Made by a program: the position numbers and the translations under genes | Assembly: GCA_035295165.1 (NCBI GenBank) | Contig: DATGJN010000115.1 | Span: 1-64,000 of the forward strand | Source: a bacterium | GTDB lineage: Bacteria; Sysuimicrobiota; Sysuimicrobiia; Sysuimicrobiales; Segetimicrobiaceae | Direction: 5' to 3' | Length of the DNA: 64,000 nucleotides | Shown here: in pieces, positions 3,152-6,319 of the stretch | Layout of the letters: each line of letters begins with the position of its first letter | How positions within the stretch are numbered: position 1 is the first letter of the stretch | The notes under the pieces: model-generated | The model's database searches: none | What the model saw: the letters and a program-made list of their open reading frames with translations, nothing else | Told to the model about the DNA's origin: nothing

Positions 3152-3227
3152 GCGCCCGTAGCTCAGGGGATAGAGCGGCTGCCTTCTAAGCAGCGGGTCG
3201 GGAGTTCAAATCTCCCCGGGCGCTCCA
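3152..3227 (+). tRNA. tRNA-Arg (anticodon TCT)
   Basis: A full cloverleaf. The acceptor arms GCGCCCG/CGGGCGC pair perfectly, the D-arm is GCTC...GAGC, the anticodon stem is GCTGC/GCAGC with loop CTTCTAA (anticodon TCT at 3185-3187), and the T-arm is GGGAG TTCAAAT CTCCC. The discriminator is T and the 3' CCA is encoded. It reads AGA codons, which are rare in such GC-rich DNA. tRNA 3' ends are common integration sites, and accessory-looking DNA follows directly. Confidence 0.97.
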
Positions 3228-3524: not shown

Positions 3525-3830
3525 TTATCTGATGGGGCGCCCGCGCCGGACTCCTTGGGCTCGCTTCGCAAACGCCCCGCCAGAGAGATGGATGCGCTTT
3601 AGCCGCGCCACCTCCCTGCGCAACGCACTCTCTGCAAAGTCTGATAGCATCAGTCTATCTGGCGGTCCCGACAGCGCAACGACCACGTCTCGCACTTCGT
3701 TGATCAGTTCTGCCGAAAGATGAAAGGTCACTCTGACTTTCTGCCCACGGCGCTCATCTGATGGTATGAGTCGCCCGGATGCCGTGACTACTTCCTTGGT
3801 GTTCGCCGTACGCTTCCTACCCCGGGCCAA
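3525..3830 (-). CDS. small basic protein, ribbon-helix-helix-like DNA-binding candidate
   Basis: 101 residues, strongly basic at both ends (MARGRKRTAN... and ...GVRRGRPIR). The centre reads KVRVTFHLSAELINEVRDV, which looks like the strand plus first helix of a ribbon-helix-helix (CopG/Arc/ParG-type) domain, followed by a second helix (LSDFAESALRREVARLKR). Such proteins act as dimers on operator or centromere DNA and are common on mobile elements. It faces away from the STAS cluster, and its upstream region overlaps the 3895 promoter region, so cross-regulation is possible. Assignment is from pattern only. Confidence 0.6.
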   Translation of the reverse strand: MARGRKRTANTKEVVTASGRLIPSDERRGQKVRVTFHLSAELINEVRDVVVALSGPPDRLMLSDFAESALRREVARLKRIHLSGGAFAKRAQGVRRGRPIR

Positions 3831-3894: not shown

Positions 3895-3924
3895 TTGACA
3901 AAAATCGGGTCACGAAGGTATTCT
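3895..3924 (+). promoter_or_regulatory. sigma70-type promoter for the STAS cluster
   Basis: A perfect -35 (TTGACA, 3895-3900), an 18-base spacer and TATTCT (3919-3924; 4 of 6 matches). Transcription would start near 3931, inside the 9-bp tandem repeat and about 100 bases before the STAS start codon. It is one of the clearest vegetative promoters in the window. Confidence 0.65.
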
Positions 3925-3967
3925 TTATTTGCTTTATTTGCTTTATTTGCTTTATTTGCTTTACTTG
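3923..3967 (+). repeat. 9-bp tandem repeat (CTTTATTTG), five copies
   Basis: Four exact copies of CTTTATTTG and a fifth with one change (CTTTACTTG), 45 bases in all, very AT-rich against its surroundings. The array overlaps the end of the -10 box and the expected transcription start. Gain or loss of a unit would alter the initial transcribed region, so it may tune or switch expression of the cluster at 4031. Read from TTG 3895 it would also encode a repeated Leu-Phe-Ala signal-like segment. Confidence 0.9.
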
Positions 3968-4030
3968 CTTTCGGCTGCACGCCGAAGCGGGTCACCTCGC
4001 TAGGGGGGAGAACTCTAGGGGGGGAGGCCG

Positions 4031-4426
4031 ATGAGTCCGGGGCAAGAGGCCACGGGCGACAACAATACAGATGCGCGCAATATCCTCGATTGCCGCCTCG
4101 AAGAACGCCACGGCGCAACAGTCGTGCATGTCTCCGGTGAGGCCGACCTGGGCGCACACGATGTCCTGGGTGACGCGTTGGCCGTTGCCTTTGACTTGGG
4201 CAAGCCCGTTATCCTACACTTCCACGACTTAACCTACGTCGACAGTAAGGGCATCAGCCTCTTGCTTCGGTGCCAACAACGCGCCGTCACGGCGAGCCTC
4301 CGTTTGGTCATCGCGAATCCGTCACGCATCGTGCGTCGCGTTCTGGACACCCTAGAACTCGATGAGGTGCTCCCCGTCTTTTCGAGTGTCGAAGTTGCGT
4401 TGCAAGTGGTGGACGGGAGGCGCTGA
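4031..4426 (+). CDS. STAS-domain anti-sigma factor antagonist
   Basis: 131 residues, nearly all one STAS domain: a VVHVSGEADLGAHD strand-helix, then HFHDLTYVDSKGISLLLRC containing the phosphorylation-type motif DSKG, with Ser72 as the expected phospho-acceptor. Family members bind an anti-sigma kinase when unphosphorylated and so release a sigma factor. No RsbW-like kinase lies in this window, so the partner is elsewhere. The ATG follows a G-rich ribosome site; two near-copies of CTAGGGGGGAG stand at 4000-4010 and 4015-4026. It leads a four-gene run with DUF2582, a small protein and a second STAS protein. Confidence 0.85.
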   Translation: MSPGQEATGDNNTDARNILDCRLEERHGATVVHVSGEADLGAHDVLGDALAVAFDLGKPVILHFHDLTYVDSKGISLLLRCQQRAVTASLRLVIANPSRIVRRVLDTLELDEVLPVFSSVEVALQVVDGRR

Positions 4427-4431
4427 ATACT

Positions 4432-4680
4432 ATGGGGCCGACCAAGGGTGCGCCCGCTGCATCGCCAGAGACAATGACCGTGCATGCCATCGGCGCGGCG
4501 GCGGGCAAGATTTGGCACGTTCTGCACCAGCACGGCGGGCACGTTCGTCTGACGAACGTGCGGCGTGAGGTAGCGATGCCCGAATCTCTTGTCTATATGG
4601 CTCTAGGTTGGCTCGCGCGAGAAGGAAAGTTGGACCTGCGGCAGCAGGGCCGCGTGATCTACGTCGGACTCAAACCGTAG
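4432..4680 (+). CDS. winged-helix protein, DUF2582 type
   Basis: 82 residues; 5 bases after the STAS gene. From residue about 20 it matches the small winged-helix DUF2582 pattern: IGAAAGKIWHVLHQHG, a recognition-helix region ending ESLVYMALGWLAREGKL and a final strand wing (RVIYVGL). Such proteins are thought to bind nucleic acid or partner proteins. The ATG at 4474 (MTVHAIG) is an alternative start that would lose only a disordered leader. Placement between two STAS genes suggests co-regulation with that switch. Confidence 0.8.
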   Translation: MGPTKGAPAASPETMTVHAIGAAAGKIWHVLHQHGGHVRLTNVRREVAMPESLVYMALGWLAREGKLDLRQQGRVIYVGLKP

Positions 4681-4708: not shown

Positions 4709-4912
4709 ATGGTCCGAATGCTCCTTGAGAACTGGGACCGGTTTGGGAGGAACGCCAGATGGATTGACCCGGACACGGGACAGCGGTACGTGCGCCTCCA
4801 CATTGGCAATAGCGAGACGTGGGAAGAGGTGGAAATCATCCGGCCTGACCGGCGCGTTGCGTTGCCACCTTCACTCGGGGAGGTGAACCGTGGGCTACGC
4901 ACTCTATCGTAA
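4709..4912 (+). CDS. small hypothetical protein in the STAS operon
   Basis: 67 residues, not recognised. It has a purine-rich ribosome site (GAAGAAGGTG) before ATG 4709 and overlaps the next gene by 23 bases, as in a coupled operon. The sequence alternates charged and aromatic residues (WIDPDTGQRYVRLHIGN, TWEEVEIIRP) and looks like a compact beta-rich domain. No signal peptide or cysteines. Confidence 0.5.
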   Translation: MVRMLLENWDRFGRNARWIDPDTGQRYVRLHIGNSETWEEVEIIRPDRRVALPPSLGEVNRGLRTLS

Positions 4913-5528
4913 GGGACGGATCGTCGAGGAGCATGAGGCCTGTACGCGCTGCAAGGGCGTTGGCGCGGTACGCGGCGGCACCGGCCCGGCGGGAGTGATG
5001 CTTTGTCCACAATGCGGCGGCACCGGCATGGAACCCGCCCCGCTGATGGATTCGGCCCTGTGGCCCCAGGAGGATACGATGGCGGTCCGGGCCGATGATC
5101 GTCTCGACGGCAAGTCCGACGCGTTCCTTCAATGCCGATACACTCGACGCAACGGGGCGAGCATCGTCCGAGCATCCGGAGAGATCGACCTGAATAACGT
5201 TCACCTCGTCGAAGAGATGCTGGGCCGCGCTCTCAGCGATAGCCGGACCGTCGTCGTGGACCTTGCGGAGACCTCCTACATGGACAGCACCGGCCTCAAC
5301 ATGCTAGTGCGGGTACACGAACAGGCGGCGCGGCGTCACACGACGATGGCCGTGGTCGTTACGTCGCGGAGCTTGTCGCGAATTTTCTCAGTCTTGTCCC
5401 TGCAAAACGTGTTTCGCATCTTCCAGTCAGTAGATGCGGCGTTGCAGGCATTGTCGCACCCGGCTGGCCCGACGCGTTCATCCCCTCGTGGACCGGAGGC
5501 CGACATCTCCATCGGGGGCCGAGACTAG
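4890..5528 (+). CDS. zinc-finger-like segment fused to a STAS domain, with a possible internal start
   Basis: From GTG 4890 (ribosome site GGGGAGGTG) the 212-residue product has two CxxC knuckles, C18-x2-C21 with KGVG and C39-x2-C42 with GGTG, in the style of a half DnaJ zinc finger, followed by a STAS domain (about 80-185) with SYMDSTGLNML, putative phospho-Ser133. ATG 5079 (codon 64) has its own good ribosome site (CCAGGAGG), so a second, STAS-only product of 149 residues is likely. The tail after 190 is Pro/Ser/Arg-rich. The fusion is unusual; whether the long form, the short form or both are made needs protein data. Confidence 0.72.
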   Translation: MGYALYRKGRIVEEHEACTRCKGVGAVRGGTGPAGVMLCPQCGGTGMEPAPLMDSALWPQEDTMAVRADDRLDGKSDAFLQCRYTRRNGASIVRASGEIDLNNVHLVEEMLGRALSDSRTVVVDLAETSYMDSTGLNMLVRVHEQAARRHTTMAVVVTSRSLSRIFSVLSLQNVFRIFQSVDAALQALSHPAGPTRSSPRGPEADISIGGRD

Positions 5529-6028
5529 ACCTTGTAGCGGTTCGGAGCCTACCCTCCTTTGCGAACGAGGCGAGTCCGCGGCAAGGGGGGGATCGTGACA
5601 CAGACTAGGGACTACCCCGCATGAAAGGTGCGTTTTGCACGCCTGCGTGCGCCCCTTCGTAACAGGGCCGTACCCCCGGTCTTGTGGAGACTTGCTGACA
5701 ACACGGGAGTGACAGGACCAGGGAAGAGGCGACACGGTGAATCGGGGCCAAGATCACCTGCCCCTCCGGGTGAACTCACGCCGCGAGCAGGATAGGTTAT
5801 TCGCCCGATGGCGGAGGAAGAGTCTCGCAGGTTATCATTAATTTTAAGATAAATTTCCGGCAGCTTCAGTATCACCTTCGGGAGACGAAGCGGAGCTGCT
5901 CTGCTAGGCAAGGCCGGGCCATCGCGACGCGTACCCGGTGAGTGTAGCGCAGAAACGGGCTGGTTTGGCATGGGAAACGACTTCGCCGGACCGACCCAGA
6001 TGACGGGCGTGGTTGGTAGGTGATGGCC
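5529..6028. other. 500-base gap with an AT-rich patch
   Basis: No supported gene. Around 5830-5860 there is an AT-rich stretch (TTATCATTAATTTTAAGATA) that stands out from the background and may be a promoter region for the CBM48 gene. I looked for a riboswitch core and recognised none. Confidence 0.45.
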
Positions 6029-6319
6029 ATGGCTACGTTGGTGCCGCATCAAGTGCTTCGGGAAGTGACATTCACGCTGGACCGGCGGCACGCCGACAAT
6101 GTTAGGTCGGTTGTGCTCGTTGGATCGTTCAACCGCTGGGACTCGTCGGTGCATCGGTTGCGACGCGACCCCGACGGTGCATGGAGTATCTCCGTGGCCC
6201 TCGCGCAGGGGCGATACCGGTACGTTTTTGTCGTCGATGGCATCCCGCGCAACGATCCTACGGAGGATGATCGGGAACTAGCCGACGGAGAATCGTATTC
6301 CGTGCGCATTGTCCGGTAA
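6029..6319 (+). CDS. stand-alone CBM48/isoamylase-N-type glycogen-binding domain protein
   Basis: About 96 residues forming one early-set domain. It shows the hallmark VVLVGSFNRWDS (the loop and tryptophan that contact glucan), then a DPDGAWSISVAL strand pair, a RYRYVFVVDG strand and a charged tail (DPTEDDRELADG). CBM48 domains normally precede branching or debranching enzymes or act as AMPK-beta-like adaptors; here there is no catalytic domain. Several starts are possible (6020 GTG, 6023, 6029); 6029 has the best spacing from GTAGGTG. Flanked by long gene-poor DNA, so its partner is unknown. Confidence 0.75.
   Translation: MATLVPHQVLREVTFTLDRRHADNVRSVVLVGSFNRWDSSVHRLRRDPDGAWSISVALAQGRYRYVFVVDGIPRNDPTEDDRELADGESYSVRIVR

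Follow-up and report, generated by a model that had tools for sequence, protein, structure and literature searches.

The question raised by this locus is whether the open frame 4890-5528 makes one protein, in which a cysteine-rich finger is joined to a STAS domain, or whether an internal start yields a STAS-only product as well. The frame was studied within a window of 64,000 nucleotides, the whole stretch of DNA that was analysed (Table 1). Because it opens one codon upstream of GTG4890, there is no earlier start. As the sequence-only reading had claimed, translation from GTG4890 places C18xxC21 and C39xxC42 ahead of the STAS domain, and the CxxCxGxG motif occurs there exactly twice (C18-T-R-C21-K-G-V-G, residues 18-25, and C39-P-Q-C42-G-G-T-G, residues 39-46). 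The STAS part scored 70.7 bits against TIGR00377 (anti-sigma factor antagonist), above the cut-off of 53.45. In the AlphaFold model of the whole protein, pLDDT was about 95-98 for residues 81-190 and 35-59 for residues 1-60, and Foldseek ranked solved anti-sigma antagonists, including SpoIIAA, RsbV and RsfB, first for the STAS part. The STAS fold is thus predicted with confidence. The DSTG loop with Ser133 is present in the window protein and also in that of genome G004, another genus of the same family, and Ser133 is the one nearly invariant column of alignment A8; we take it to be the place of the phosphorylated serine in SpoIIAA. The window protein therefore resembles RsbV and SpoIIAA (TIGR00377, PF01740) in its STAS domain, its DSTG serine and its fold, but differs from them in the additional N-terminal finger and linker and in having no HATPase_c_2 gene on its contig.

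Table 1. Features of the finger-STAS locus and related loci (coordinates refer to the window unless a locus is given).
Feature	Position	Strand	Remarks
tRNA-Arg(TCT), directly before cassette	3152-3227	+	
Small protein divergent from STAS1	3525..3830	-	63% identical in G004, same place
Promoter-like TTGACA-18-TATTCT before STAS1	3895..3924	+	Consensus match only; 3 such sites in region vs 1.1 in shuffles
STAS1, single-domain STAS protein, first cassette gene	4031..4426	+	PF01740 53.7 bits; 62% identical to L038:2890-3288
DUF2582 winged-helix protein	4432..4680	+	PF10771 58.3 bits; in 2/12 family genomes
67-aa gene, overlaps GTG4890 by 23 bases	4709..4912	+	Residues 2-48 49% identical in G002
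GGAGGTGA, ribosome site of GTG4890	4879..4886	+	Anti-SD duplex -12.1 kcal/mol
Finger-STAS fusion gene	4890..5528	+	GTG start, 212 aa; 65% identical full-length relative L038:3377-4000
Two CxxCxGxG motifs, residues 18-46, putative single Zn(Cys)4 site	4941..5027	+	Sequence; subthreshold Pfam; 4/4 conservation
In-frame ATG codon 47, possible further start past last Cys (GTG in G004)	5028..5030	+	Anti-SD -5.0; G004 -6.5
Linker, residues 53-78, variable past LWPQE	5046..5123	+	12/26 residues as in G004; dN 0.49 vs dS 0.38, few sites; low pLDDT
AGGAGG ahead of ATG5079, coding part of P-Q-E-D	5068..5073	+	Anti-SD duplex -10.3; bases kept in G004
Internal ATG, codon 64, candidate second start	5079..5081	+	GCG in G004
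STAS domain, residues 85-184	5142..5441	+	PF01740 68.3 bits, cut-off 22.6; TIGR00377; Foldseek
Ser133 of DSTG loop	5286-5288	+	Inside STAS domain
Free half-finger gene, G001	L039:3099-3350	+	
Free half-finger gene, G001	L040:2954-3148	-	

The finger stayed below the family cut-offs, with 19.9 bits against 32 for Anti-TRAP (PF15777), 12.4 against 32.7 for DnaJ_CXXCXGXG (PF00684) and 12.6 against 65 for NF058604 (Anti-TRAP), and folded by itself it gave a mean pLDDT of 49.7. Despite these scores it is more than a chance pattern, because it is conserved in the relative: the four Cys and the four motif Gly are invariant in all four aligned module sequences, that of the window included. Chance cysteine motifs were ruled out by this conservation. 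When the module profile was compared with solved chains, the nearest was the DnaJ cysteine-rich domain 1exk (E 0.0012), and anti-TRAP matched weakly (E 0.15 and 7.4). The DnaJ cysteine-rich domain has four CxxCxGxG motifs, whereas the window protein has two and is without a J domain match. Anti-TRAP (AT, RtpA) is likewise a small module with two CXXCXGXG motifs, but it is free-standing, and the window finger is fused to STAS. An excerpt on AT states that its two motifs bind zinc and that zinc is required for the oligomers and for function (PMC2896485). By analogy, the finger probably holds one zinc through its four cysteines, and anti-TRAP would be the best model for its job, though membership of that family fails on score. 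In PHROGs the best match was phrog_6060 (small phage Q-like finger proteins), to which all four members of the module matched (E 4e-6 for the window); unlike the window protein this 61-position profile is without STAS, and its function is known by annotation only.

The same Cys-STAS fusion, for which a search in relatives had been proposed, was found once among 147 genomes, as a 207-aa protein of G004 that is 65% identical over its full length. Its finger part is 63% identical, retains every Cys and motif Gly (four of each), and starts with ATG exactly at the position of GTG4890. Between the two fusions, residues 1-63 showed a dN of 0.22 and a dS of 0.63 (dN/dS about 0.34; Nei-Gojobori, as for the following values), residues 79-192 a dN of 0.16 and a dS of 0.88 (0.18), and the 26-codon linker, with few sites, a ratio above 1. 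The finger part thus diverges faster than the STAS part. The ratio of residues 1-63 against that of the linker suggests that the finger is under constraint as protein while the linker drifts. A tree built from 23 chosen STAS rows joined the two fusions as a pair (94/95, just short of the tool's star) and likewise the two STAS1 genes (97/90). Since G004 carries the same fusion in the same cassette, the comparison indicates that the long finger-STAS protein is real and selected. The joining of a half-DnaJ finger to a STAS antagonist, as first read from the sequence, is in this way borne out in a second genus.

Whether the frame also gives a second product depends in part on its ribosome sites. 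Duplex energies were calculated against a generic anti-SD, which may not equal this genome's own 16S end, and compared with those of 476 ATG, GTG and TTG codons from the central half of 52 open frames in the window, each at least 120 aa long and picked by a greedy procedure; not all of these frames need be genes. None of these internal starts reached the value of GTG4890, and eight, ATG5079 itself included, reached that of ATG5079, in 8 of the 52 frames (5 of 107 when internal ATGs are taken alone). The site of GTG4890 is therefore exceptional, and that of ATG5079 is strong but not rare. The two sites are predicted to be equally open (0.51 at each), and ATG5079 sits in the tighter local fold (-25.6, against -16.6 at GTG4890); a third start nearby gave -22.7. 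SD-like sequences inside genes are, according to an excerpt, generally depleted in bacteria, mis-initiation being one proposed reason (PMC5100845).

In G004 CCCAGGAGGA is unchanged and codon 64 reads GCG, so that the second start is not conserved. No in-frame ATG, GTG or TTG occurs there from codon 48 to codon 92, and the next start codon, 93, lies inside the STAS domain. This implies that a STAS product in G004 has to include the finger or begin at a codon further upstream. As codon 47 is a potential start codon in both genomes (ATG in the window, GTG for G004), translation that omits the finger is possible in each; the strength of the site at codon 47 is equalled by 120 of the 476 internal starts at the window value and by 44 at that of G004. 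Between the window and G004, codons 54-63 show identity in all 7 comparable cases, with a background of 77 of 129, which is a weak hint of constraint on the site at the DNA level. The argument that a conserved ribosome site proves a second start was rejected: the longest run of identical codons along the gene (9) is reached in 37% of shuffles. The long-form ATG of G004 (L038:3377) itself has a weak site (-3.1), yet the internal AGGAGG (-10.3), there without a start codon, is kept. These comparisons involve two fusions, both from draft genomes, and since no others were found the conservation of the start is judged from a single comparison.

The sequence-only reading had proposed that two products are made from the one frame, a zinc- or redox-responsive long form from GTG4890 and an indifferent STAS-only antagonist from ATG5079, to which codon 47 can be added as a start. 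It was right that ATG5079 has a strong ribosome site of its own, and the strength and equal openness of both sites in this genome, the AGGAGG and surrounding synonymous sites kept in G004, and the start codon past the last Cys in both genomes are consistent with two products. However, the replacement of ATG5079 by GCG in the only other fusion, equally strong internal starts in other frames, the frequency of sites of the grade of codon 47 and the tighter fold at 5079 argue against it. Two products as a kept design were consequently not borne out, and we consider this reading unlikely. ClpB is a gene with a real internal start and shares with the window gene the idea of two products from one frame, but the internal start of the latter is missing in its nearest relative. 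Leaky use of ATG5079 in this species is possible.

Among the 43 genomes of the phylum that were examined, all of one order, the whole module was present in three (G000, G001 and G004) and fused to STAS in two. With a profile of the module, 18 of 386 genomes drawn outward matched at E <= 1e-4, again along the whole module only in G000, G001 and G004 (the best 16 candidates per genome were scored, so that misses are possible). Of the other 15 matches, 12 lay in open frames of 359-390 aa, which is DnaJ size, and one more (L096) has a J-domain-like beginning, judged by eye. No module was found at 3e-6 in 396 genomes of another phylum, a search without positive control, and the full-length query gave no confirmed match in named genomes; nearly all other listed matches of the fusion protein covered the STAS part only. 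Homologues lacking the Cys-rich part, or having it as a separate gene with an intervening stop, had been named as evidence against the fusion. STAS-only paralogues and free finger genes do exist, but they occupy different loci, and the only orthologue within the same cassette is a fusion with no intervening stop. G001, which is of the same genus, has two free finger genes (64 and about 83 aa), neither of them beside a STAS gene. By eye they lie near a GNAT/acyl-CoA-synthetase-like gene, one directly before it and the other separated from it by a response-regulator-like gene, and both have copies of the same two neighbour genes, as if a block had been duplicated. In G004, a 323-aa frame (L061, G004:C178:2089-2187, minus strand) has the same kind of half-DnaJ finger near its front. 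A finger-like match on contig C34 of the same genome as the window was discarded, as its locus is without a frame having two CxxCxG motifs. A plasmid origin was rejected (of 72,556 plasmid records 27 matched, none of them over 80% of the query), as was a prophage origin (3 of 50,697 phage records, STAS part only; the finger alone had 1 weak match); viral contigs held no fusion and two distant finger matches. In the open-licence full-text literature that was searched, neither a STAS antagonist with CXXCXGXG nor one with a DnaJ zinc finger was found, nor a paper treating the STAS domain together with an N-terminal extension of an anti-sigma antagonist or with zinc, domain fusion and anti-sigma.

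The small number of fusions, their restricted spread and the faster divergence of the finger would fit a structural or degenerate add-on with no regulatory effect, neither sensing metal nor binding a partner. The invariance of the four Cys and four motif Gly in all four module sequences speaks against this, and we hold such an idle finger to be rather improbable. Less probable again is the most elaborate scheme, a zinc- or thiol-responsive anti-anti-sigma factor in which the finger gates the release of sigma and a second isoform from ATG5079 omits the finger, the ratio of the two setting the sensitive share of the switch. That the true gene is STAS-only from ATG5079, with the Cys part an upstream leader or a chance frame, would agree with the good ribosome site at 5079 and with the many STAS-only matches, but is scarcely credible given G004, where the upstream part is kept as protein, with ATG for GTG and the four Cys, and codon 64 is not a start, and given that in the finger part third codon positions differ most (11, 14 and 22 differences at positions 1, 2 and 3).

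The order common to the window and G004 is small divergent gene, STAS1, finger-STAS. Between its STAS genes the window has two extra small genes, for the DUF2582 protein, which is not there in G004, and for the 67-aa protein, whose overlap makes translational coupling to GTG4890 possible. The divergent gene 3525-3830, present in 5 places in 4 of the 43 genomes, had no Pfam or PHROG match; its product is perhaps ribbon-helix-helix-like, judged by eye. Genes of this type also lie divergent to another STAS gene of the same genome, on contig C37 (L115), and, in G001 (L114) and G002 (L113), to a gene that looks Hsp20-like by eye; the family is perhaps a local stress regulator. The leader of STAS1 contains, right after the promoter-like site (3923-3971), about 5 copies of a 9-base repeat (CTTTATTTG, 97% match), not seen in the aligned G004 leader; its copy number could vary expression. 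An island at tRNA-Arg was rejected, because a 24-base stretch from the 3' end of the tRNA is not repeated elsewhere in the window when up to 3 mismatches are allowed, and ARAGORN found no tRNA in 8 kb taken from the G004 locus. Further downstream (6020-6319, plus strand) lies a free-standing 99-aa glycogen-binding module (AMPK1_CBM, 36.5 bits, cut-off 26.8).

With a probability of roughly 0.6, we favour one two-domain protein that arose from a finger gene and a STAS gene, with the STAS domain binding a kinase and the finger adding a surface. In this protein a half-DnaJ finger with two CxxCxGxG motifs would be linked by a flexible linker to the RsbV/SpoIIAA-like STAS domain. A free small finger gene may have become joined in frame to a STAS gene whose own ribosome site and start codon persisted, and ATG5079 and the AGGAGG would be their remnant; ATG5079 is best read as the former start of the once-separate STAS gene. 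In the STAS-only paralogues L003, L005, L006 and L011 a Met stands 10-19 residues ahead of the first STAS strand (picked by eye, and these may not be their real starts), and Met64 of the fusion lies 17 residues ahead of it. The free fingers of G001 extend 20 and 39 residues past the last motif, and Met64 is 18 past it. Because these free fingers do not adjoin a STAS gene, the ancestral gene order itself is not seen.

With its DSTG serine unphosphorylated, the STAS domain would bind an RsbW-like kinase encoded at another place in the genome, thereby freeing a sigma factor. No kinase or anti-sigma gene lies beside the fusion; HATPase_c_2 was found at 20 places in the genome, 12 of them over the cut-off and 0 on contig C115, and some of these are surely ordinary sensor kinases. 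Orphan anti-sigma antagonists need no neighbouring kinase gene. The finger would add a surface for protein binding or oligomerization, as in anti-TRAP, and might thereby tie the antagonist to a partner or to the zinc supply. Zinc binding, the sigma pathway, the job of the finger and the direction of the fusion event are what we infer. Should the finger control the antagonist, a metal or thiol signal could enter partner switching directly at the antagonist instead of by way of a phosphatase, and the gene would be a clear example of a fusion in which the start codon of the former downstream gene can still be recognized.
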